A DNA stretch of 27,429 nt. Source: a virus. Within the stretch, counting starts at the first letter, position 1, and each line of letters begins with the position of its first letter. Shown in pieces: positions 6,901 through 24,052 of this stretch. Below the pieces are notes generated by a model. That model saw only the letters and a program-made list of their open reading frames with translations, was not told the origin of the DNA and did no database searches. A program made the position numbers and the translations under genes. The stretch is from positions 1 to 27,429 of IMG/VR virus record IMGVR_UViG_3300031787_000680. One strand, 5' to 3'.

Positions 6901-9900
6901 TTTAATGTTACATTAAATGAGGTATTAGTAATCCCAAAAATGGTGTATTTTCCATTATATACACTACTTTTAAGAGATATTTGTGAGTAGTTTGCAACAT
7001 CTTCATCAGGCAATATAACTTCTCCATCTTTTTGTAACGTATAAGATAAAGATTTTGGTAGATATTCTGAATATCTTAGTGTTAATGAGGCATCTGAACT
7101 AATTCCTACCGTACCAACATTTACAATATTAAATACTGTTCCTGAAGAATCAGAAACAAATTCTTCAGTAAATGACTTATCATTATATAATTTTAATTTA
7201 TAATTAATTAATGATGGATCAGATAATGAAAATACCAAATCATTATTTCTTATAACTTCAATTTTGGGATTAATAAACCCAAGTGTATGGTTAGTTCCAC
7301 CTACAGAATTAAAAGAAATAATTTGTGGTGGAGATTTATACAGATCGCTATAAGTTTCTGCTAATTGAATCTTATTATTATTTAATTTAAAAACATAGTA
7401 GTCACCAGTACTTAACCCAGATATTGTTGCCCCAGTAGATGAATAAAATACCTTATCACCAGTATTAAACTTATGGTTTGGTACATTAATAAGATCTTCT
7501 GCTATATCTACAGAAGAAGGTAAAAATTGAGTAGGATTTACAATAATTCTGTCATAAGATGAATTATATTTTAAGTTTATAAATGTTGAAGTACCAATGC
7601 CAACACTTTGGTTTGATTTTACTTCCAAATCAATTACGTCACCAGATACCAAAGTATGTTCTTCATCTAAAGTAATTTTTGCTGTTATTTTCTCAATATC
7701 ACCTTTAACTTGTTGAAAATCTGATTCTATAGAATATTCATAATTATTTTCTGCGTTAGATATAAAAAATAAACCACTAGTATTTGTAGTTAGACCTACC
7801 GAAGTTGTAATTCCAATATAATCCTTTGATTTTTTAATAATATATACAAATTCCGAATTCCCACTTCTAGGTAAAATAAAACTTCCACTATTCGGAGAAT
7901 CTGCTACTAGTATTTGAGTTCCTTCAGAGGGTTTCCTTAAAATTACTTTTTGTGCGTTTTCAAATGGGTGATTTGGTAAGTATATACTTTGAGTTGGTAC
8001 AGAAATATTTTTAATATATTGACCAATTCCAAATGTTCTAGTCCCAGCAATTCCTGGAGTAGTTCCAACTCCAATTGATTCTACTGGATTGAAATATACA
8101 ATATCATTAAATCTTGAATCAAATTTGTCTAGAGATTTTCTAATTTCAAACGTGGATGGTAATAATACTACAGGATCACCAATACTATGAGCAGTTCCGG
8201 TTACACTTCCCCTATTTACTCGAATAACATTATTTTCTCTAAAAACATTAAGAACTGATACTACCTCAGTTACGGTGCCGATCCCAACACTATCCCCAAC
8301 AGATATTGTAGTTGGTACACTAGAAACATATATGTCTATTGAATTATTATCCAATAATATTGGATTTATTGGAACATTGGAAAGAAGAGTTACAGAGGTT
8401 TCTTCCACAGATATGTTGTGTTCTCCACCAATCAGAGTACTTAGTGATTCTGAGTTTATTCCAGTAATTCTTACATTATCATTATCAATTAATCCATGAA
8501 TTTTATTTGTTTTTACGATAATTGTACTATCGTTTTTCCAAGTAAAAATTGTATCCGGAAAATACTCTACTGTTGTATCAATTTTATTAATTGATTTGCC
8601 TTCAATTTTTGAGACATAAGCACTTAAACCGCCACCATTGGTTCCAGTATTATCAAATTCCAGTAGATCATTAATTCTATATCCTTGTCCTGGTTGAATA
8701 ATATCAAAAGAATCTACTGAACCTTTTGATGTATATTCAACCACCGAGATTTGATTGGAAATTTCATTGGGTTCAATAATAAAATCACTCCCCGAATAAG
8801 CATCATTTACTTTATATGGTAGAGTATTTCTAATTAATGTGGAGTTATTAAAATCAAATGATTGGTCAATATTAGAATCGATATTTTCTACTAATGGAAC
8901 GTAGTTATATTTGTTACCAATAAAGTATGGGAATTTGGGTTCATATAATTCTGATGATGATGTAGTGATTCCCGCAAAATATGCATAAGTTCCATTTGGG
9001 AATTCTGGAGTTTTACAAAATCTTCCATTATTTTCATCCAAATCCCCAGAATCAGTAAACTTGTAGTCCTCAACAAACATTCCATTTTCAAATCCACTGG
9101 GCCTATTTACTACCAAAGAAGAATCTAGTGTATATCCAGTTTCTAATATTTTAACGGCAGAACTATTATTTTCTGGATCAGAATATCCATATGGACCATA
9201 AATTGGACATCCATCATATGACCACCCAATAATCGGAGAATGATATGGATTTGATGGATTGCTATTTCTTTGATCTCCAAATACAATCTTTCCAATATTT
9301 GTAGAATATCCAACATATCCATATTCTGTATATTCTTCCCTATTAATTAGAATTTCTTGTCCAAATTTTTTGTAATTATTAATTTTTAAATCTCTTACCG
9401 CACATTCTAAAAATACACCGTATCCTGCTGATTTAACCTTAATGCTTGTAGATGCGCTTGAATATCCACTGCCACCCTGAATGATAATTACCTTAGTTAG
9501 ACGGTTGTCAATAATTACTGCTTTTAATTTCGCCCCTACACCATCTCCCTCTACAATAATATCAGGAACACTATAATATTCAGTTCCTCTACTTTGTACA
9601 GATGCTCCAACTATAGAACCATTTGATATAATTGGAGTTACTAAAGCATTTTTACCATTTTTAATTTTAACTGATGGTTTTTTATGTAAATTTAAAATAT
9701 TTGACCCATATCCACTACCACCATCATAAAGATATGTCCCAACTAAAGAACCTCTAACATACGGTGTCGCTGTTATCACGCCTACAGGATTAGAAATTCT
9801 AACATTTAATTCAATTTTTGGGTATCTAAATGAATGATACCCAGTTCCAGTTGACTGAAACTTACTATAATTTTTTCGATTATAGTTTTCAACTGATGTA

Positions 9901-18301: not shown

Positions 18302-18307
18302 AGTATA
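18302..18307 (-). promoter_or_regulatory. Dyad-class promoter -10 for the 53-aa gene
   Basis: Minus-strand TATACT, 29 bp from the 24-bp dyad at 18337-18360. A GGGTC-TCCG-GACCC mini-palindrome lies between the two. Confidence 0.6.
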
Positions 18308-18331: not shown

Positions 18332-18366
18332 AACCCTGTGCCAGTGGTTTGACCGGCACAGGGGTT
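18332..18366 (-). promoter_or_regulatory. 24-bp dyad 1 (core 18337-18360), extended stem
   Basis: Core begins TGTGCCAGT and ends CCGGCACA; flanking AACCC/GGGGTT lengthen the stem to 11 bp with one bulge. It lies 6 bp past the stop of the 49-aa gene (18372) and 29 bp upstream of the -10 at 18302. Confidence 0.65.
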
Positions 18367-18371
18367 AGCTA

Positions 18372-18521
18372 TTAGAATTGAATTTCACTCAGAGTAGGAG
18401 CAGCAGCGGAATCAGAACCGCCACTGTCAGAAACCCCATTAGCAATTGAATCAAGAATTTGGAGAATTTGCTCACCATTGGAACCTTGGCGAAGGAGTGA
18501 GAGAATGACATCGCGGGACAT
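18372..18521 (-). CDS. Small conserved-type protein, 49 aa
   Basis: ATG at 18521 gives MSRDVILSLLRQGSNGEQIL followed by QILDSIANG, a Ser/Gly/Ala linker and the end APTLSEIQF. The N-terminal 25 residues look like an amphipathic helix. Very similar short proteins (MSRDxILSLLRQG...) recur in cyanomyoviruses, to my recollection, without a known role. The stop is followed at 6 bp by dyad 1. The region upstream (18522-18584) has no dyad and only weak -10-like TAACAT. Confidence 0.75.
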   Translation of the reverse strand: MSRDVILSLLRQGSNGEQILQILDSIANGVSDSGGSDSAAAPTLSEIQF

Positions 18522-18550
18522 AATGTAGAATGAAAAATGTTAGAAATGAT

Positions 18551-18573
18551 TGAGCAGTTTTAGGTCATGCTCA
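18551..18573 (-). terminator. Hairpin after the 86-aa gene
   Basis: Stem TGAGCA/TGCTCA with an 11-base loop, 11 bp past the stop at 18585. It does not match the 24-bp dyad family and has no T-run. Confidence 0.35.
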
Positions 18574-18584
18574 GGACCCACACT

Positions 18585-18845
18585 TTAGAAGTCGAAAACG
18601 TCTCCGTTGATTTCGGCGCGGTTAACTTTAGAGTCGTTCCACTTCACACCGTCAGGGGTTTCTTTGCTGCCGAATTCATAGAACAATTCCAGCAGTTCTT
18701 CATAGCAGCAAACATCATTTTGTTGAATGTATTCTTGGATGGATTCGTCATTCTCAATCCAGAGGACTACGTTCCAGGTTTCATAATTTGTCCAACCGTT
18801 GTAGGTTGCATCGGTGAGGCAAGTCTGGTAGGTTGCGGTTGCCAT
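18585..18845 (-). CDS. WTNYETWxxxLW-motif protein, 86 aa
   Basis: 86 residues. TYNGWTNYETWNVVLWIEND (residues 14-33) is a signature shared by small proteins of many phages and some microbes, of unknown function. It is followed by an acidic helix-rich part (YEELLELFYEFGSK) and an acidic end. Net strongly acidic. The start at 18845 follows a leader with CATACCAAACGAAACGCAA and no Shine-Dalgarno. Promoter -10 TATAAT at 18870 with dyad 2 at 18906. Confidence 0.8.
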   Translation of the reverse strand: MATATYQTCLTDATYNGWTNYETWNVVLWIENDESIQEYIQQNDVCCYEELLELFYEFGSKETPDGVKWNDSKVNRAEINGDVFDF

Positions 18846-18869
18846 TTGCGTTTCGTTTGGTATGAATCA

Positions 18870-18875
18870 ATTATA
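18870..18875 (-). promoter_or_regulatory. Dyad-class promoter -10 for the 86-aa gene
   Basis: Minus-strand TATAAT; no -35 at 16-18 bp. The dyad edge is 30 bp upstream. The leader contains ATTCATACCAAACGAAACGC. Confidence 0.65.
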
Positions 18876-18905
18876 AGGGGTGGAAGTGCCGTTCTGGGGG
18901 AACCT

Positions 18906-18929
18906 TGTGCCAGTTCCCCAAGTGGCACT
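18906..18929 (-). promoter_or_regulatory. 24-bp dyad 2
   Basis: Plus strand TGTGCCAGTT, CCCC, AAGTGGCACT. It touches the stop codon of the 78-aa gene (18929-18931). Confidence 0.65.
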
Positions 18930-19165
18930 CAGCAACCCATCCGCTGGCAAAGTGCCTCTAGATTCTTTTCAACTTGCTCGCTGAAAAGGGATTCTTGAAT
19001 CACCTCCCGAATCTTCAGCAGAGCATAATCATATCCTTCATCATTCGTCAGTTGATTCTGATACTTTTCAGCAGTGGAGTAGCAGTCAAACAGACGCATA
19101 GAATCAAAGTTTTCGCCTTCATAATCCCAACCACCAATCACGGCATAAACTTTAGAGATTTGCAT
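18929..19165 (-). CDS. Small protein, unknown function, 78 aa
   Basis: Starts MQISKVYAVIGGWDYEGENF; the VYxVIGGWDYEGE opening and LFDCYSTAEKYQNQL (residues 26-40) look like a conserved small phage family. The frame predicts beta-strand, loop, two helices. Three Cys, two of them near the C-terminus. Function not recognised. -10 TATAAT at 19192, dyad 3 at 19228, leader with CATACCACGCAACCCAAGCAA and no Shine-Dalgarno. Confidence 0.75.
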   Translation of the reverse strand: MQISKVYAVIGGWDYEGENFDSMRLFDCYSTAEKYQNQLTNDEGYDYALLKIREVIQESLFSEQVEKNLEALCQRMGC

Positions 19166-19191
19166 TTGCTTGGGTTGCGTGGTATGAATTA

Positions 19192-19197
19192 ATTATA
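19192..19197 (-). promoter_or_regulatory. Dyad-class promoter -10 for the 78-aa gene
   Basis: Minus-strand TATAAT, 30 bp from dyad 3; the intervening segment is C-rich on this strand and has no -35. Confidence 0.65.
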
Positions 19198-19227
19198 GGG
19201 GGTGGGAGGGGCATCCGCTGCCCCCCT

Positions 19228-19251
19228 TGTGCCACTTGTCAGACCGTCACA
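19228..19251 (-). promoter_or_regulatory. 24-bp dyad 3, overlapping a gene end
   Basis: Plus strand TGTGCCACTT, GTCA, GACCGTCACA. It encodes the last residues (VTV) and the stop of the 62-aa gene, so the site and the C-terminus are the same DNA. Confidence 0.65.
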
Positions 19252-19427
19252 TCCTCTAGCAAATCAGGATTGTATTCTGTAACCTCAGCAATCAGTTCCT
19301 CATCAGAATAGGAGCTCAGATTGTCCTTCAATGTATCATAAACGAAACATTCCAAACATTTCAGGTCCATTGAATCTAGGATCTGCTGAGCATAATCAGC
19401 AATCAGAGAATCGCGGTCAAAGTTCAT
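19239..19427 (-). CDS. Acidic small protein, last gene of five-gene operon, 62 aa
   Basis: MNFDRDSLIADYAQQILDSM opens a largely helical acidic protein (SSYSDEELIAEVTEYNPDLL near the end). Similar short proteins occur in cyanophages, to my recollection. The ATG overlaps the stop of the 21-codon mini-ORF (ATGA). The final codons lie inside dyad 3. Possible DNA mimic from its acidity, but nothing specific supports that. Confidence 0.75.
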   Translation of the reverse strand: MNFDRDSLIADYAQQILDSMDLKCLECFVYDTLKDNLSSYSDEELIAEVTEYNPDLLEDVTV

Positions 19428-19489
19428 TTCAGGTAAGTTTTGTCGGAGACGTAGTAGTGAATGATGCCGAAGATTTTAATAGTTTTCAT
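19424..19489 (-). CDS. 21-codon coupling mini-ORF
   Basis: ATG at 19489 shares a base with the preceding stop (TGATG), and the TGA at 19426-19424 overlaps the next ATG (ATGA). Product MKTIKIFGIIHYYVSDKTYL plus one Lys, with a hydrophobic middle. The perfect overlap at both ends is the only argument that it is translated; it may serve to carry ribosomes to the 62-aa gene. Confidence 0.45.
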   Translation of the reverse strand: MKTIKIFGIIHYYVSDKTYLK

Positions 19490-19596
19490 CAGTGGTGCAG
19501 AGTGATAAGGGCAGAGGCAAACTTGTCATCGTCCATCATCTCCAACTGGTCATCAGTAAGTGACATTAGCAGGGCGACGATTTCAGCGAATGACAT
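19489..19596 (-). CDS. Small acidic protein, 35 aa
   Basis: MSFAEIVALLMSLTDDQLEM begins a 35-residue protein, predicted as two short amphipathic helices with a Met/Asp-rich turn, ending in Leu-His-His. The ATG at 19596 is preceded by AAGGAACCCACT, a usable Shine-Dalgarno. The longer open frame upstream overlaps the 40-aa gene and is rejected. It overlaps the next mini-ORF by one base. Confidence 0.65.
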   Translation of the reverse strand: MSFAEIVALLMSLTDDQLEMMDDDKFASALITLHH

Positions 19597-19627
19597 AGTG
19601 GGTTCCTTAAGTTCGGGGTAGAGGGTT

Positions 19628-19750
19628 TCAGTAATCATAGTCACCTTTGAGGTATTCATCAAGGTTGAAATCTTTGGAGTCTTGCATCTCCGGGATGTCA
19701 AAGATTTCGCCGGGAGCATCTTGAATCTCAGACCAGAGTTCGTCAGTCAT
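19628..19750 (-). CDS. Small acidic protein, 40 aa
   Basis: MTDELWSEIQDAPGEIFDIP and then EMQDSKDFNLDEYLKGDYDY: 40 residues with about a third Asp/Glu and almost no basic residues. The ATG overlaps the stop of the 49-aa gene (ATGA). Probably unstructured or a charge mimic; no family recognised. Confidence 0.65.
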   Translation of the reverse strand: MTDELWSEIQDAPGEIFDIPEMQDSKDFNLDEYLKGDYDY

Positions 19751-19896
19751 CCCAATTTCCTCAACATTTCATAGTAAATGTTCAACTCTCTTCGCACACT
19801 ATTCAATTCACTATTCGTTGCACCTTGCGATTGGAGAGTGTTAAACTGTTCGTGCAATTCATCAAGTTTGGATTGAATTGTTTGTGCGTCAGTCAT
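19747..19896 (-). CDS. Coiled-coil small protein, first gene of operon, 49 aa
   Basis: MTDAQTIQSKLDELHEQFNT followed by a second helix (ELNSVRRELNIYYEMLRKLG) with heptad-like Leu spacing. An upstream in-frame ATG at 19947 would lie in front of the promoter and is rejected. First cistron of a five-gene unit (19896 to 19239) with ATGA, 31-bp gap, TGATG and ATGA junctions. Driven by -10 TATACT at 19925 and dyad 4. Confidence 0.7.
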   Translation of the reverse strand: MTDAQTIQSKLDELHEQFNTLQSQGATNSELNSVRRELNIYYEMLRKLG

Positions 19897-19924
19897 CAGG
19901 TGGGGGTGCCTCTCAACTGAACTT

Positions 19925-19930
19925 AGTATA
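19925..19930 (-). promoter_or_regulatory. Dyad-class promoter -10 of the five-gene operon
   Basis: Minus-strand TATACT, 29 bp from dyad 4; predicted leader of about 22 bases. Confidence 0.65.
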
Positions 19931-19959
19931 GGGCACCAGGGGGGCATTGGAAGGGGGTC

Positions 19960-19983
19960 TGTGCCACCTTGTCAAGCGGCACA
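19960..19983 (-). promoter_or_regulatory. 24-bp dyad 4, overlapping a gene end
   Basis: Begins TGTGCCACCT, ends AAGCGGCACA on the plus strand. It encodes the last residues (CAA) and the stop of the nucleotidyltransferase-like gene. Confidence 0.65.
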
Positions 19984-20868
19984 CTGGAAGCGACCTTGGT
20001 TAAAGTTTGCTTTAGAAAAGACCTCACGATTCACCAGTTTGAACATACCAAACTCATTGGTCATGACATAACCTTCGGCATCAATCCTGTCCTGTCCGAT
20101 GTATGCTGCAGGACCATCATTACGGCACAGGAAGAGGCAATCTTCCTTAATAGTTTTAACCAGCAACCACAAACGAATCAGGTTAGGATCACACTCAAAG
20201 TCATCCTCATGAATCCTCATACCCTCACGAATGCGAGCATTAATTTGTTGCTTAATCTTTGCCGCTTCCTTATCAGTTGCAAAGCGGGCAGTGGTTGCAA
20301 CTTGGCGGGCGAACTTACACACGTCCTCAACATCAGCAAAGGATTCCTGATTGTGCAGGATGTATGCATTGGGTTTGACAAACTTAACCGTTTCGGTATC
20401 ATTCCAGATTGCACGATCAGGGTATGCCACGGCATTACGAAGATCGTTCTCAGCGTAATAGCAAGTGTGAGGAGCGATGATGATAATTTGCTCCACAATC
20501 TCCGGGAACTGATACGTAATCAGGTTGGAAGTGTATTCATCAGATCCACCGAAACCGATGAAGTCTGCCTGATAGATTGTCTCAGTACGGGGCAGATAAT
20601 CAAAGCACGTATGAAGAATGTCTGCCACGTTGCCCTGATAGAAGAGATCAATCTCCTCATGATTGTGGGCGATACGAATCTTTTTCTTGTTAAATACTGC
20701 CTTGGTTCCTACAAAGAACGTACCGGTTGCAGGATCAATTCCCCACACAATAGCAGGAGCACCATCAATCTTGACACTCAAAGTTCCAGGGGTCACGAAC
20801 CAATCCAGAACGGAAAGGTCTCCCGTCAGGATGGTATCTTCGGCGTGTTCGAGGTGGGTGTTTTTCAT
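19972..20868 (-). CDS. KxDG ligase/nucleotidyltransferase-like protein, 298 aa
   Basis: Related to the covalent nucleotidyltransferase (DNA/RNA ligase and capping enzyme) superfamily. Motif I is K33-I-D-G36 in SVKIDGAPAIVWG, where Lys would be adenylated. A motif III-like QADFIGF lies at 100-106. Motif IV-like E265-G266-Y-V and motif V-like K277-L-V lie near the C-terminus. The N-terminal NTHLEHAED resembles the opening of a T4-like phage family with a KWDGAPA motif, of unproven activity. 298 aa and no OB-fold tail is recognisable. The ATG at 20868 is chosen because the upstream open codons contain the promoter. The -10 (20875-20880) lies so close that transcription should begin at the ATG itself, i.e. 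a leaderless mRNA. An antisense frame of similar length exists but is a shadow. Confidence 0.8.
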   Translation of the reverse strand: MKNTHLEHAEDTILTGDLSVLDWFVTPGTLSVKIDGAPAIVWGIDPATGTFFVGTKAVFNKKKIRIAHNHEEIDLFYQGNVADILHTCFDYLPRTETIYQADFIGFGGSDEYTSNLITYQFPEIVEQIIIIAPHTCYYAENDLRNAVAYPDRAIWNDTETVKFVKPNAYILHNQESFADVEDVCKFARQVATTARFATDKEAAKIKQQINARIREGMRIHEDDFECDPNLIRLWLLVKTIKEDCLFLCRNDGPAAYIGQDRIDAEGYVMTNEFGMFKLVNREVFSKANFNQGRFQCAA

Positions 20869-20874
20869 GTCTTT

Positions 20875-20880
20875 AGTATG
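20875..20880 (-). promoter_or_regulatory. Dyad-class promoter -10, probably leaderless
   Basis: Minus-strand TGC-CATACT (extended -10), six bases before the ATG at 20868. Dyad 5 is 29 bp upstream. Confidence 0.55.
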
Positions 20881-20909
20881 GCACGGGATCGGGGGGAATG
20901 GGGGAACCG

Positions 20910-20933
20910 TGTGCCAGTTCTTCAAGTGTCCTT
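20910..20933 (-). promoter_or_regulatory. 24-bp dyad 5, degenerate right arm
   Basis: TGTGCCAGTT, CTTC, AAGTGTCCTT: the left arm is perfect, the distal arm decayed. It encodes the end of the 50-aa protein gene and its stop (20922-20924). Confidence 0.55.
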
Positions 20934-21074
20934 CTTCTTCAATTTGAGTGGTGGTAGTCCTTTTGGTTTGTTTCGGTTCTCATAAAGAGTTCCACCCAAC
21001 CAAAAAACACCAGGAGCAACTTCTATTTCTTTTGAGAATAAGAACTTGATGATTTTGAGTAGAGTTTTAGTCAT
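20922..21074 (-). CDS. Small basic protein, 50 aa
   Basis: MTKTLLKIIKFLFSKEIEVA, then PGVFWLGGTLYENR and a Lys/Pro-rich end. Basic, with an amphipathic N-terminal helix that could sit on a membrane. The ATG overlaps the stop of the 68-aa gene by 8 bp, so it is the second cistron of a pair. No family recognised. The C-terminus is encoded by dyad 5. Confidence 0.7.
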   Translation of the reverse strand: MTKTLLKIIKFLFSKEIEVAPGVFWLGGTLYENRNKPKGLPPLKLKKKDT

Positions 21075-21273
21075 TTCTCATTTGCTCCAGAACATTAATG
21101 AATTGAGAAATACAATTTTTTGGAATACTAAAAGAACTTCCTTGTTTGGTTTCAACATTTCCAATCAATTCATAATACTCAACTTCAATACATCCTTCAC
21201 CATCATCAGTGAATTGGTAGAACCAACCATCCTCGTGGTGAATGCGAATTTCTTTGGTGATTTGGTAGTCCAT
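21067..21273 (-). CDS. Small protein, unknown function, 68 aa
   Basis: MDYQITKEIRIHHEDGWFYQ, an acidic beta-rich first half (FTDDGEGCIEVEYYEL) and a helical C-terminus ending EQMRND. The start has a good Shine-Dalgarno (AAAGGA, five bases before the ATG), unlike most genes of the island. Followed by the overlapping 50-aa gene. -10 TATAAT at 21297 and dyad 6 at 21332. Confidence 0.7.
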   Translation of the reverse strand: MDYQITKEIRIHHEDGWFYQFTDDGEGCIEVEYYELIGNVETKQGSSFSIPKNCISQFINVLEQMRND

Positions 21274-21296
21274 CAGTCCTTTGTGTGTATGAGAGT

Positions 21297-21302
21297 ATTA
21301 TA
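21297..21302 (-). promoter_or_regulatory. Dyad-class promoter -10 for the 68/50-aa pair
   Basis: Minus-strand TATAAT, 29 bp from dyad 6, leader about 17 bases with Shine-Dalgarno. Confidence 0.65.
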
Positions 21303-21331
21303 AGGCATCACAGGGGGCTTTGGAGTGTCCT

Positions 21332-21355
21332 TGTGCCAGTTCCCCGAGTGTCACA
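21332..21355 (-). promoter_or_regulatory. 24-bp dyad 6
   Basis: TGTGCCAGTT, CCCC, GAGTGTCACA, ending at the base before the stop codon of the 113-aa gene (21356). Confidence 0.65.
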
Positions 21356-21697
21356 CTATGCCAGAATCATCCCATTAGTAAAGTCTTTCTCTACAAATAC
21401 GGGGGAAGATCCTGCCTGCCCGACGAACTTATGAACGAACCATTTAAAGTTCTTTTGAAATACGCATTCGCCCTTGATTGCGTGTCGCTGAAGAATAGCA
21501 TTCAGGCGGGATTTGGTGGTAGAAGATTGCCAACCACCGTCAAACAGAGTGACGAAATTATCACCAACTTCGGCAATCTTGTTGCCGTGAAGGAATACAT
21601 TTGCCACGCCATCTTCATGCATGACAGTAGTATTTCCACTGGTAAAGTTGCGACCTTCCAGAATAGCAGCGTTCATAAGGGTTTCAATCTTACGCAT
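21356..21697 (-). CDS. Conserved-type phage protein, unknown function, 113 aa
   Basis: Starts at the ATG at 21697 (MRKIETLMNAAILEGRNFTS); the open extension to 21802 runs through the promoter and is rejected. Recognisable blocks are NTTVMHEDGVANVFLHGNKI (residues 22-41) and LFDGGWQSSTTKSRLNAIL (50-68), a small beta-sheet protein type seen in cyanophages, to my recollection, of unknown role. It ends beside dyad 6. -10 CATACT at 21723 and dyad 7 at 21759. The leader contains TTCATACCAAGCAACCCCAC and no Shine-Dalgarno. Confidence 0.75.
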   Translation of the reverse strand: MRKIETLMNAAILEGRNFTSGNTTVMHEDGVANVFLHGNKIAEVGDNFVTLFDGGWQSSTTKSRLNAILQRHAIKGECVFQKNFKWFVHKFVGQAGSSPVFVEKDFTNGMILA

Positions 21698-21722
21698 TGG
21701 TGGGGTTGCTTGGTATGAACAT

Positions 21723-21728
21723 AGTATG
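21723..21728 (-). promoter_or_regulatory. Dyad-class promoter -10 for the 113-aa gene
   Basis: Minus-strand TGC-CATACT with ATCCCG just upstream, the same context as at 20875. 30 bp from dyad 7. Confidence 0.6.
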
Positions 21729-21758
21729 GCACGGGATGGGCGGTTCCACAACCCAAGG

Positions 21759-21782
21759 TGTGCCAGTTCGGAAAGTGGCACG
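21759..21782 (-). promoter_or_regulatory. 24-bp dyad 7, not at a gene end
   Basis: TGTGCCAGTT, CGGA, AAGTGGCACG. No protein gene ends here; the upstream segment is non-coding, which argues against a simple mRNA terminator role for the family. Confidence 0.65.
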
Positions 21783-21803
21783 ATGCCGCCTTCCAGGGGC
21801 ACT

Positions 21804-21882
21804 GGCTGCCCTATGATAAGGGGACAATCAGCAAAGACGGCAGCAGGGTAGCTGCCTGATCAAAGGTCGCCACCGGGGCAGC
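21804..21882. ncRNA. Possible structured RNA with two alternative folds
   Basis: No plausible reading frame. Four complementary hexamers, GCTGCC (21805), GGCAGC (21839), GCTGCC (21851) and GGCAGC (21877), can pair as 1-4 plus 2-3 (a long closing stem around a 6-bp hairpin with 6-base loop) or as 1-2 plus 3-4. The inner hairpin is further closed by ATCA/TGAT. Strand is unknown: on the minus strand it lies past the terminator at 21905, on the plus strand no promoter is evident. No known riboswitch family was recognised with confidence. Confidence 0.35.
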
Positions 21883-21904
21883 TTAAAAATAATGATAAAA
21901 TATA

Positions 21905-21937
21905 ATAAAAAAGGAAAGGGCACCACCCCTTTCCTTA
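21905..21937 (-). terminator. Strong rho-independent terminator
   Basis: Perfect 10-bp stem AAGGAAAGGG/CCCTTTCCTT with a 6-base loop, then TTTTTTATTATA on the minus strand. It has the best U-tract in this part of the window. Confidence 0.85.
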
Positions 21938-22015
21938 TAACCTACGCACCCACTTTGTCCGTTATGATATCACCACAGGAGTAACTTTTGCTTAAAGAGA
22001 GGCAAACTCTTTCCT
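21905..22015 (-). ncRNA. Candidate small RNA, about 110 nt
   Basis: Bounded by a near-consensus promoter (22022-22050, predicted start about 22015) and the terminator at 21905-21937. No ATG occurs between them on this strand. Internal features are GTTA/TAAC arms enclosing the palindrome TGATATCA (21966-21973) and an inverted repeat AGAGAGG/CCTCTCT at 21996-22019 at the 5' end. Not a tRNA (no T-loop motif) and not recognised as a known cyanobacterial RNA. The alternative is a 3' tail of the ArdA-like mRNA. Confidence 0.5.
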
Positions 22016-22021
22016 CTCTGT

Positions 22022-22050
22022 ATTATATCAGTTGTCGCTGAAAATGTAAA
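22022..22050 (-). promoter_or_regulatory. Host-type promoter inside the end of the ArdA-like gene
   Basis: TTTACA (22045-22050), 17 bp, TATAAT (22022-22027) on the minus strand. It points into a non-coding segment ending at a strong terminator. The -35 overlaps codons for VYIF. Confidence 0.65.
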
Positions 22051-22459
22051 CGTTACGGTAACCAACCTCGCAGGCAGTCATATCATAACGAAGCGAAGAT
22101 TCCCAGGTTGCTTCCCAATCTACAACCAACATAGAGGGCACTTCACCATACACATCGTTGTAGAACTGTTCAGCATAATCGGCAGTAGAATCAAACTGCC
22201 CACGATAACGCTCATCGCATTCCTCAACATACGAAACGTCGCCCATTTCTGCAATCAGAGCATCAACCGCTTCATAACCAATTGCCTCACCACAGCGGCA
22301 ATATTCTTCATAGTATGCAACGAAGTCTGCCTCATTGTGCTCATCGATGAATTTCAGAGCATCATCCAAATCATACGAATCTTCCAGCAATTCGTCAATC
22401 TTCTCAACAGTATCAGTAGCGAGAACTTCTTTGTAGTTGGCGGTCAGAGTGACGGTCAT
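22028..22459 (-). CDS. ArdA-like antirestriction protein, 143 aa
   Basis: Very acidic protein whose second half matches the ArdA layout: YRGQFDSTADYAEQFYNDVY (residues 85-104), then VPSMLVVDWEATWESSL (107-123) and a C-terminal strand NVYIFSDN. ArdA proteins mimic bent B-form DNA and inhibit type I restriction enzymes, and sometimes modification. Typical ArdA is about 165-170 aa; here the N-terminal domain is shortened and diverged. Expressed from -10 TATTCT (22485) with dyad 8. Its last codons hold the -35 of a separate promoter. Alternative: another DNA-mimic family of the same shape. Confidence 0.75.
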   Translation of the reverse strand: MTVTLTANYKEVLATDTVEKIDELLEDSYDLDDALKFIDEHNEADFVAYYEEYCRCGEAIGYEAVDALIAEMGDVSYVEECDERYRGQFDSTADYAEQFYNDVYGEVPSMLVVDWEATWESSLRYDMTACEVGYRNVYIFSDN

Positions 22460-22484
22460 TTGGTGTTTTTGTGTTGATGAATGT

Positions 22485-22490
22485 AGAATA
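22485..22490 (-). promoter_or_regulatory. Dyad-class promoter -10 for the ArdA-like gene
   Basis: Minus-strand TGT-TATTCT (extended -10), followed by ACATTCATCAACAC. 30 bp from dyad 8. Confidence 0.6.
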
Positions 22491-22520
22491 ACAGGGATGA
22501 GGCAGGAAGTCTAGGGGGTT

Positions 22521-22544
22521 TGTGCCAGTTTGGCGACTGTCACA
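22521..22544 (-). promoter_or_regulatory. 24-bp dyad 8, overlapping a gene end
   Basis: TGTGCCAGTT, TGGC, GACTGTCACA; a perfect match of the outer arms except one pair. The stop TGA of the 90-aa gene (22540-22542) lies within the distal arm. Confidence 0.7.
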
Positions 22545-22812
22545 CCATCACCAGTTTGGCAGGTTTTTCTTTCTTAACTTTAACGAAACCGTATCCGTCG
22601 TGGTATACGCTATACTCACAACCATACACGTTCTCGTCAACAACTTCCCAGGATTCGTGGTCTACCTTAACAATAATGTAACCATAAACGCTGGCACCAA
22701 CTAACATATCACGACCCCACTTGTCTGCTGCTCGCTGAGAAGAATGCAGAGTCGGTTCGTTATAGAAACCGTTGGAGTCTTCGCCAATCACAATAGTTTG
22801 GAATTGAGTCAT
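22540..22812 (-). CDS. Small protein, unknown function, 90 aa
   Basis: Starts at the ATG at 22812 (MTQFQTIVIGEDSNGFYNEP); the open extension upstream crosses the promoter and is rejected. The middle carries SSQRAADKWGRDMLVGASVY and a beta-rich acidic part with several Tyr and Val; the end is Lys-rich (KVKKEKPAKLVMV). Possibly an alpha/beta fold. No known family recognised. Leader ACATTCATACCAAACAACCC, no Shine-Dalgarno. Confidence 0.7.
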   Translation of the reverse strand: MTQFQTIVIGEDSNGFYNEPTLHSSQRAADKWGRDMLVGASVYGYIIVKVDHESWEVVDENVYGCEYSVYHDGYGFVKVKKEKPAKLVMV

Positions 22813-22834
22813 TTGGGTTGTTTGGTATGAATGT

Positions 22835-22840
22835 AATATA
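22835..22840 (-). promoter_or_regulatory. Dyad-class promoter -10 for the 90-aa gene
   Basis: Minus-strand TATATT, preceded by ATCCCTAA; 30 bp from dyad 9. Confidence 0.55.
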
Positions 22841-22869
22841 TTAGGGATTGTGGCGAACCGCAACCCCCC

Positions 22870-22895
22870 TTGTGACAGTTCTCAGACTGTCACAA
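22870..22895 (-). promoter_or_regulatory. 24-bp dyad 9, perfect palindrome arms
   Basis: TTGTGACAGT/ACTGTCACAA, 10-bp perfect arms with a 6-base centre that holds the stop codon of the 49-aa gene. The most symmetric copy of the family. Confidence 0.75.
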
Positions 22896-23031
22896 GACCC
22901 TTTGAATGCATCAGAATCATATGATCTAGTGCATCACCCAGAGTAGAGCGAACATACTCATCTTTCAGCATTGAACTCTCATAAGCATCATAGAGTTTTG
23001 TATACAATTCATCAAACTGGGTTTGAGTCAT
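22882..23031 (-). CDS. Small helical protein, 49 aa
   Basis: ATG at 23031 gives MTQTQFDELYTKLYDAYESS followed by LKDEYVRSTLGDALDHMILM and HSKGLVTV. Two amphipathic helices; no motif. The C-terminal VTV and stop are encoded by dyad 9, giving the same ending as the 62-aa protein at 19239, another case where the dyad supplies the C-terminus. Confidence 0.7.
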   Translation of the reverse strand: MTQTQFDELYTKLYDAYESSMLKDEYVRSTLGDALDHMILMHSKGLVTV

Positions 23032-23057
23032 CGGGTGAATTTCTCAGGTATGAATGT

Positions 23058-23063
23058 AATATA
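23058..23063 (-). promoter_or_regulatory. Dyad-class promoter -10 for the 49-aa gene
   Basis: Minus-strand TATATT followed by ACATTCATACC, the same block as at 22835. 29 bp from dyad 10. It lies 8 bp past the stop of the 82-aa gene. Confidence 0.6.
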
Positions 23064-23070
23064 TCAGCAA

Positions 23071-23319
23071 TCAGCGGCGTTTGGTAGTTTTCTGTGCCAC
23101 TTGTACGACTGGCACATCGGTATTCAATTGTGCCTGCAATTGCTCCACAATCTTGTCAACGAACTGCAGCACGGTTTGCATCACCTTACGGGTCTTTTCT
23201 GCCCCGTTGTTTTCATTGAACGAACGCACAGCAAACTGTACAATTCCCACAACGATTGCGGCGATGGTAGCAACATTTAGAACCAAGGTTTGATAGAATT
23301 TAGAGGCGAAGAGTTTCAT
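23071..23319 (-). CDS. Single-pass membrane protein, 82 aa
   Basis: Starts at the ATG at 23319 (MKLFASKFYQTLVLNVATIA). One hydrophobic helix at about residues 10-31, then a charged helical region (40-65, coiled-coil-prone) and a basic end. N-terminus short and basic, so probably anchored in the inner membrane with the long tail in the cytoplasm. Small membrane proteins with this opening recur in cyanomyoviruses, to my recollection. Dyad 10 lies inside the coding sequence and encodes VPVVQVA (residues 69-75); 15 more bases of gene separate it from the stop. Confidence 0.75.
   Translation of the reverse strand: MKLFASKFYQTLVLNVATIAAIVVGIVQFAVRSFNENNGAEKTRKVMQTVLQFVDKIVEQLQAQLNTDVPVVQVAQKTTKRR
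23093..23116 (-). promoter_or_regulatory. 24-bp dyad 10, inside a coding sequence
   Basis: TGTGCCACTT, GTAC, GACTGGCACA. It sits within the 82-aa membrane protein gene yet keeps the 29-bp distance to the next -10 (23058-23063). Confidence 0.7.
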
Positions 23320-23370
23320 AATATTAATGGGATGGGAGGAGAATGTAGAGAATTCCTCAACCACGAACAT

Positions 23371-23376
23371 AGAATA
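23371..23376 (-). promoter_or_regulatory. Dyad-class promoter -10 for the membrane protein gene
   Basis: Minus-strand GGT-TATTCT; 30 bp from dyad 11. The leader is longer than elsewhere (about 45 bases). Confidence 0.55.
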
Positions 23377-23406
23377 ACCCCTCACAGAGCATTCTGCAAG
23401 GGGTCT

Positions 23407-23430
23407 TGTGCCACTTCGAGAACTGTCACA
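23407..23430 (-). promoter_or_regulatory. 24-bp dyad 11
   Basis: TGTGCCACTT, CGAG, AACTGTCACA; directly abuts the stop codon of the 50-aa gene (23431). Confidence 0.65.
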
Positions 23431-23616: not shown

Positions 23617-23763
23617 TCATGCATAATGCCGATATGCAAGTGCTTCGAGATCATGTGAGTCTCGTGCATAATCCTCGTCGAGTTCTATGTCTTGTGCATA
23701 ATACTCGTCGAGATCTGCATAATCATTTGTGTATGTATAGTCGAGATCGTAGTCGTCGTACAT
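23617..23763 (-). CDS. Possible 48-aa Asp/Tyr-rich protein inside the repeat array
   Basis: ATG at 23763 reads MYDDYDLDYTYTNDYADLDE with further LDE units and ends YRHYA. LDE is the translation of CTCGACGAG, so the repeated DNA motif is in frame at 23674 and 23704. Very acidic. The promoter TATACT (23794-23799) with flanking motif copies lies upstream. The reading frame may be a by-product of the repeats; composition is unlike any neighbour. Confidence 0.4.
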   Translation of the reverse strand: MYDDYDLDYTYTNDYADLDEYYAQDIELDEDYARDSHDLEALAYRHYA

Positions 23764-23793
23764 AAAACTCGTCGAGATTGAATGAACGTTGAT

Positions 23794-23799
23794 AGTATA
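23794..23799 (-). promoter_or_regulatory. Promoter -10 with flanking CTCGTCGAG sites
   Basis: Minus-strand TGC-TATACT. The 13-bp palindrome at 23806-23818 covers the spacer/-35 side and another copy (23768-23776) lies at about +15. A further TATACT is at 23822-23827. Confidence 0.5.
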
Positions 23800-23902
23800 G
23801 CACAAATCTCGACGAGATGCAAGTATAATGTATGCTAATCTAGTCGAGATTGTTGTATGTATATATGTATTCTCGTCGAGATTTTATGTGTTTCTCGTCG
23901 AG

Positions 23903-23931
23903 ATTCTAACATATTGTATAATGTTTGTCAA
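23903..23931 (-). promoter_or_regulatory. Consensus promoter flanked by CTCGTCGAG sites
   Basis: TTGACA (23926-23931), 17 bp, TAGAAT (23903-23908) on the minus strand. One motif copy lies just upstream of the -35 (23934-23942) and one spans the predicted start (23894-23902), the classic places for a repressor. Confidence 0.75.
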
Positions 23932-23974
23932 GTCTCGTCGAGTTTTTGTGCGTGTTCTCATAAGTCTCGTCGAG

Positions 23975-24052
23975 TTTTTGTGTGGGTCTCACAGTATTTT
24001 CGCGGGGGTGGGACTTGACAAACTGCGCGTCTTATGCTTCGCTCGCTTAGTC
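23975..24052. other. GC-rich spacer with one arm of a 12-bp inverted repeat
   Basis: No gene seen. GACTTGACAAAC at 24012-24023 (plus) is an exact inverted copy of the -35 region at 23922-23933. No -10 fits the plus-strand TTGACA, so this copy is not a promoter. The segment CGCGGGGGTGGG precedes it. Confidence 0.45.

Follow-up and report, generated by a model that had tools for sequence, protein, structure and literature searches.

Introduction

Transcription start-up in T4-like cyanophages, which are devoid of alt, mod, motA and asiA, is an open question (PMC2984593). Compact early promoters have been described for T4-type phages in the form of promoter early - stem-loop (PeSL) cassettes (Arbiol 2010; Comeau 2014; both as cited in PMC4503421), which do not occur at high density in the S-PM2 ORFanage (PMC4503421). 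The element of the P2 Ogr/P4 delta activators is TGT-N12-ACA (PMC3931495). In the cyanobacteria themselves, the yfr2 promoters contain an element termed CGRE1 (Lambrecht, Wahlig and Steglich 2018, DNA Res, cited in PMC6778093). CGRE1-containing yfr2 promoters are bound by the Prochlorococcus GntR regulator PMM1637, which is found in all cyanobacteria; MED4 has no CGRE1 outside these promoters, and the induction of Yfr2 by high light and nitrogen starvation goes via PMM1637 (PMC6778093). Here we describe a promoter element in a 27,429-nucleotide stretch of viral DNA (record IMGVR_UViG_3300031787_000680, positions 1 to 27,429; hereafter the window), namely eleven 24-bp dyads of the consensus form TGTGMCASTTNNNNAASTGGCACA, each placed upstream of a -10 box. 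We consider it quite probable that these dyads belong to early sigma-70 promoters that hijack the host GntR regulator, of the PMM1637/PlmA type, controlling the Yfr2 (Cyano-1) small RNA (sRNA).

Results

Dyads stand in a fixed register to the -10 and -35 boxes

The gene content of the window, with gp6-like and gp25-like genes and small open reading frames all on the minus strand, is that of a T4-like cyanophage. An initial annotation of the window had listed eleven dyads and placed a -10 box 29 or 30 bp from each; all eleven dyads were recovered, the -10 coordinates proved exact and the gap was 29 or 30 bp in every case. The strict pattern TGTGCCASTT-N4-AASTGGCACA, with three or fewer mismatches allowed, was matched by ten of the eleven and by nothing in 100 dinucleotide shuffles; the eleventh, at 20910, fits only a looser pattern, with three mismatches. 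In this region a -10-like hexamer is expected at either of two fixed offsets with p = 0.052 per site, and the probability of eleven out of eleven is approximately 7e-15. The elements are as follows.

18337..18360, minus strand, dyad 1 (candidate regulator site), gap of 29 bp to the -10
18302..18307, minus strand, -10 TATACT of dyad 1
18906..18929, minus strand, dyad 2, gap of 30 bp, touched by the stop codon of upstream gene 18929-19165
18870..18875, minus strand, -10 TATAAT of dyad 2
19228..19251, minus strand, dyad 3, gap of 30 bp, contains the upstream gene's stop codon (19239)
19192..19197, minus strand, -10 TATAAT of dyad 3
19960..19983, minus strand, dyad 4, gap of 29 bp, contains the stop codon (19972) of the ligase-like gene
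19925..19930, minus strand, -10 TATACT of dyad 4
20910..20933, minus strand, dyad 5, gap of 29 bp, degenerate upstream half AAGGACACTTGAAGAACTGGCACA, contains a stop codon (20922)
20875..20880, minus strand, -10 CATACT of dyad 5, before the apparently leaderless ligase-like gene
21332..21355, minus strand, dyad 6, gap of 29 bp, abutted by the upstream gene's stop codon (21356)
21297..21302, minus strand, -10 TATAAT of dyad 6
21759..21782, minus strand, dyad 7, gap of 30 bp
21746..21751, minus strand, -35 TTGTGG of dyad 7, 7 bp from the dyad, 17-bp spacer
21723..21728, minus strand, -10 CATACT of dyad 7
22521..22544, minus strand, dyad 8 (promoter of the ArdA-like gene), gap of 30 bp, contains a stop codon (22540)
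22508..22513, minus strand, -35-like TAGACT of dyad 8, 7 bp from the dyad, 17-bp spacer
22485..22490, minus strand, -10 TATTCT of dyad 8
22871..22894, minus strand, dyad 9, gap of 30 bp, contains a stop codon (22882)
22858..22863, minus strand, -35 TTGCGG of dyad 9, 7 bp from the dyad, 17-bp spacer
22835..22840, minus strand, -10 TATATT of dyad 9
23093..23116, minus strand, dyad 10, gap of 29 bp, in the 3' part of upstream gene 23071-23319
23058..23063, minus strand, -10 TATATT of dyad 10
23407..23430, minus strand, dyad 11, gap of 30 bp, abutted by the upstream gene's stop codon (23431)
23394..23399, minus strand, -35 TTGCAG of dyad 11, 7 bp from the dyad, 17-bp spacer
23371..23376, minus strand, -10 TATTCT of dyad 11

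A recognisable -35 had been held to be absent throughout. This description fails at 21759 (TTGTGG), 22871 (TTGCGG) and 23407 (TTGCAG) and, less clearly, at 22521 (TAGACT); in all four promoters the -35 is separated from the -10 by exactly 17 bp and from the dyad by 7 bp.

The same geometry was found in related phages. Eighty loci were fetched, each containing an orthologue of gene 19972-20868. On the coding strand of these relatives, 211 sites matched a loose motif; counted without any condition on the -10, strong -10s fell at 29 bp in 38 cases and at 30 bp in 37, with no more than six at any other offset; the 29-30 bp spacing, for which a search of related genomes had been proposed, is conserved. 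A larger set comprised 776 non-redundant dyad copies from related phages, the spacing counts of which presuppose a -10 at 28-32 bp. Here, at least four of the six positions of TTGACA were matched in 250 copies, compared with 66 when spacers were shuffled, and TTG occurred 7 bp past the dyad regardless of the gap to the -10 (52 cases at a gap of 29, 130 at 30 and 12 at 31). This constant position indicates that it is the -35 to which the dyad is anchored, and consequently that the difference between 29 and 30 bp is mostly that between a 16- and a 17-bp spacer from -35 to -10. The dyad centre is at about -54. Start codons in the relatives lie mostly 20-30 nt past the -10. De novo 7-mer enrichment upstream of the -10s yielded nothing clear.

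At P-SSM2 66591 and S-SKS1 150583/150654, dyads either have a -10-like sequence on each side, 29 bp away, or occur as back-to-back pairs; it is possible that one site serves divergent promoters there.

Dyads precede early genes of the Microcystis siphophage Mic1

Two loci with dense dyad arrays matched the Microcystis siphophage Mic1, which contains 47 dyads, all within 57.3-72.1 kb. The early genes of this phage, defined by RNA-seq, are gp49-gp73 (PMC11237433), corresponding to 52.6-71.9 kb. Among the 23 early genes, 13 are directly preceded by a dyad, as against none of the 75 others (Fisher 2e-10). All of gp69-gp73, five of the six E1 genes of 0.5 h, possess an upstream dyad; the sixth, gp49, does not. 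The gap from dyad to -10 is 29/30 or 39 bp, approximately one helical turn apart, and in most cases the -35 is TTGACA, TAGACA or TGGACA. For gp71 and gp73 the automated choice of -10 was off, and CATAAT was found by eye at approximately 30 bp.

Tandem dyad arrays with a period of 56-63 bp were seen at Mic1 65.9-72.1 kb and in loci L075 and L081; many of their copies are followed by a TTGACA-like -35 but no -10. Such arrays might possibly act as a sink or as a multi-site enhancer for the regulator.

Distribution among phages and genes under the dyads

A position-weight matrix built from the 211 loose-motif sites detected the element in the genomes of six T4-like cyanophages (S-PM2, S-CRM01, Syn9, S-SKS1, P-SSM2 and P-SSM4), but nowhere in T4 or in shuffled sequence. 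In composite searches, each of the genomes listed in full yielded 17-38 sites; Markov controls yielded 1-7, and searches with a wrong spacing 3-13. The genes that follow the sites are small and non-structural or, in a few cases, involved in replication, and the structural clusters are free of sites. Syn9 possesses four dyads, at 46.3, 48.6, 51.0 and 53.0 kb in the gp62-gp94 region, before small non-structural genes; in S-PM2, CobS and gp32 both have upstream sites, each of them weak. No dyad was present in Ma-LMM01, Syn5, P-SSP7, PSS2, Nodularia phage 2AV2 or pelagiphage HTVC008M, and CL131 gave a single weak match. A full dyad-promoter unit was also seen in a Flavobacteriales contig (TMED113; locus L329), a bacterial genome bin into which a cyanophage contig has probably been misplaced.

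The genes of the window that stand under dyads are presumably early. Three of them were assigned to families:

22028..22459, minus strand, ArdA-like anti-restriction protein, gene under dyad 8 (phrog_36653, E=1.6e-38; Pfam ArdA, E=0.0011, below the cut-off)
19972..20868, minus strand, DUF6267 family, termed ligase-like in the initial annotation, gene under dyad 5 (PF19782, E=8.7e-76; phrog_455)
21356..21694, minus strand, Kyano_Gp96 family, gene under dyad 7 (PF23790, E=3.9e-43)

The DUF6267 gene appears to be leaderless, with 6 nt from the -10 to the ATG (window 20866-20880). The same layout recurs in P-SSM2 (58535) and in loci L132, L133, L136 and L147, and among 646 dyad promoters, 59 have an ATG within 10 nt of the -10. 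Many CTCGTCGAG(A/T)TT-like repeats are present at window positions 23660-23990, located between the last gene under a dyad and a G-rich stretch.

The dyad recurs at host Yfr2 promoters

Exact matches across all prokaryote genomes (257 Gb) amounted to 39 stretches for a chance estimate of approximately 30, from which host use of the dyad was initially discounted. A search allowing one mismatch overturned this, with the dyad present in 30 of 194 cyanobacterial genomes compared with two for a reversed-pattern control. Thirteen of 18 host dyad loci scanned contain the Cyano-1 sRNA (RF01701, Yfr2 family), which typically starts approximately 40 bp past the dyad, so that the dyad occupies the same promoter position as in the phages. 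Of the picocyanobacterial yfr2 promoters, 11 of 28 scored above 8 bits, compared with two of 280 null windows. By place and by type of sequence, the phage dyad appears to match the host Yfr2 promoter element. In extending to a siphophage and to host genomes, use of the element is wider than the initial annotation had allowed.

A GntR domain (PF00392) was absent from all 14 phage records scanned and was matched once in each of two cyanobacteria tested. The host GntR protein of locus L408 (332 amino acids) is PlmA-like. In three host loci (L370-L372), a second conserved dyad, TGTACCAGTTTTRCAAGTGGCACA, stands upstream of a 93-residue putative membrane protein and is maybe another GntR target.

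A phage-encoded activator is unlikely

An alternative is that an activator encoded by the phage or delivered with the virion, akin to P2 Ogr or P4 delta, binds the dyad at approximately -54 and contacts RNA polymerase, the resemblance to host promoters being secondary. The geometry is indeed near that of Ogr/delta promoters, in which the element is positioned near -55, and each phage has sites by the dozen, whereas in hosts they are scarce. Nevertheless, the C4 zinc-finger activator family of Ogr/delta (PF04606) had no homologue in 12 records (11 cyanophages and T4), and no obvious regulator is common to Mic1 and the T4-like cyanophages. Inspection of 35 conserved S-PM2 proteins, by eye and with few run through Pfam, recognised no transcription factor. 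Furthermore, early genes require a factor that is already present, and the host yfr2 promoters carry the same site. With Ogr/delta and GntR absent and no known transcription factor among the S-PM2 proteins, a phage-encoded regulator was set aside; we regard this explanation as unlikely.

Dyad-promoter units form cassette boundaries

The distance from each dyad to the upstream stop codon had been described as variable. Variation exists, in that the stop lies 11 bp before the dyad in one case and beyond it in another (dyad 10, within the 3' part of gene 23071-23319, was rightly noted as intragenic), but it is not free: eight of the ten dyads with a nearby upstream gene have the stop inside or against the dyad. 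In relatives, the upstream stop was inside the dyad in 318 of 676 cases and abutted it in 56.

Comparison of the window with its relatives revealed that 155 of 201 upstream ends of homology fall in dyad-promoter units (null mean 47), and that 73 of 232 downstream ends fall within the dyad itself (null mean 14). At positions 7928-8001 of locus L132, the upstream flank of dyad 21332 runs directly into the downstream flank belonging to dyad 20910, with the junction precisely at the dyad; this is a clean recombinant that possesses one whole gene cassette fewer than the window. The dyad-promoter unit is the usual cassette boundary and often supplies the stop codon of the upstream gene.

The clustering of homology ends and the clean L132 join could be taken to mean that the dyad is mainly a recombination element, whether an integron-like or Xer-like site or merely shared homology, that shuffles gene cassettes and is associated with promoters as a by-product. 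Recombination, however, needs no fixed register to -35 and -10, breaks also occur elsewhere in the unit, and ordinary homologous recombination at repeats would be enough; this explanation is very unlikely.

The arms of the dyad do not covary

Across the 776 copies, pairing between the arms never clearly exceeded independent expectation in a covariation test. Positions 8 and 17 paired in 30% of copies against 44% expected; the excess of equal bases at these positions was not significant once the set was thinned to 60% identity (p = 0.14) and was counted only against pairing. The promoter-proximal half holds 13.8 bits of information and the other half 10.9. An Rfam scan of the window gave no match on the dyads and no relevant match elsewhere, and the features of an intrinsic terminator, a covarying stem and a T run, were lacking from the dyads. 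Since its arms do not covary, the dyad is, as judged from sequence comparison, a protein-binding site rather than an RNA hairpin. The assignment of the dyads to the downstream promoter, and not to the upstream gene as terminators, stands: the spacing is kept in several hundred relatives, RNA-type covariation is absent and the same offset recurs in an unrelated phage.

That the dyad is an RNA hairpin ending the upstream gene, either a terminator or a processing site as in the promoter-terminator composites of PeSL, draws on the stop codons inside or against it and on a separate hairpin enriched between dyad and -10 (303 of 776 copies against 90 when shuffled, with a T tail in 78), but can be dismissed as most improbable given the lack of covariation, on which it was rejected, together with the mispairing at 5/20 and 8/17, the lack of a T run after the dyad itself, the distance to the -35 fixed at 7 bp, and the presence of dyads in tandem arrays and ahead of host sRNA genes.

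Discussion

We propose that each 24-bp dyad would be bound by a host transcription factor acting as a dimer, with a GntR-family protein of the PMM1637/PlmA type as the most likely candidate. Set just upstream of a sigma-70 -35 (centre at approximately -54, 7 bp to the -35 and 29-30 bp to the -10), the bound regulator would contact RNA polymerase from about -54. Upon infection, host RNA polymerase and host regulator could then fire the dyad promoters at once, before any phage protein is made, and early, mostly small non-structural genes would be expressed from them. Binding of GntR to the phage dyads is putative, and activation is the presumed outcome of such binding, rather than repression.

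Several observations weigh against this proposal. Only 32% of copies possess a good -35 match, although the many copies without one are what would be expected of activated promoters. The picocyanobacterial yfr2 sites are degenerate, with mainly the upstream half kept, and lie approximately 10 bp closer than those of other cyanobacteria. The occurrence of CGRE1 nowhere else in MED4 implies a tiny regulon, and some other host factor of yfr2 could be the protein that binds the dyad. Lastly, ten of the 23 Mic1 early genes have no dyad within 140 bp, so that read-through or other promoters are needed there.

On balance, we lean towards a scenario in which unrelated cyanophage lineages (the T4-like phages of Synechococcus and Prochlorococcus, and the Microcystis siphophage) have planted many GntR sites of the Yfr2-promoter kind before their early genes in the same -35/-10 register, either independently or by exchange. 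One conserved host regulator would thereby serve as a shared entry switch for take-over, and its sites would double as cassette boundaries. A regulator of the PMM1637/PlmA type reports nitrogen and light stress (PMC6778093). If a host GntR/PlmA protein does drive these promoters, infection would be tied to host nutrition and host range could be influenced. The dyad-promoter unit also provides a simple DNA signature for the early genes of uncultured cyanophages.

Doron et al. (2016, ISME J, doi 10.1038/ismej.2015.210) are reported to have found a novel regulatory element that is conserved at early genes of T4-like cyanophages, Syn9 included. The dyad promoters are probably not a wholly new class, part having probably been published for marine cyanophages, and the GntR link may itself already be in print given that C. 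Steglich is an author of both that study and the CGRE1 paper. Unless contained in those papers, what is added here is the siphophage case, the 7-bp step with its helical-turn variant, the stop-codon overlap, the cassette junctions, the freshwater phages and the link to Yfr2; the Mic1 findings and the precise geometry may not have appeared in print before. The element of Doron et al. is reportedly likewise abundant, associated with early genes and conserved in T4-like cyanophages. In view of that report, the suggestion that an element of this form is new to cyanophages is not supported; the motif also appears to correspond to the Yfr2 promoter element of the host, to which PMM1637 binds (PMC6778093).

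Among other known systems, the middle promoters of T4 have a MotA box near -30 in place of the -35, unlike the present element, which is centred at about -54 and has a -35 of its own; cyanomyoviruses are without motA and asiA (PMC2984593). The late promoters under P2 Ogr and P4 delta share with the dyad promoters a dyad upstream of a weak -35 and one activator site per promoter, but differ in the element itself (TGT-N12-ACA there, TGT-N18-ACA here) and in the genes served, late there and early here. PeSL cassettes (cited in PMC4503421) are similarly compact intergenic early promoters marking points of gene-cassette exchange, a trait seen here in the homology ends and the L132 junction, and some dyad copies may also have a stem-loop terminator. 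Unlike PeSL, the conserved part here would be a protein-binding dyad, absent from T4, and a T-tailed stem-loop accompanies only 78 of 776 copies. As with CGRE1 and yfr2 (PMC6778093), a dyad-like sequence stands upstream of Cyano-1/Yfr2, with the same distance to the RNA start in non-picocyanobacterial hosts; the host promoters number one or a few copies and their picocyanobacterial sites are more degenerate, whereas the phages possess tens.

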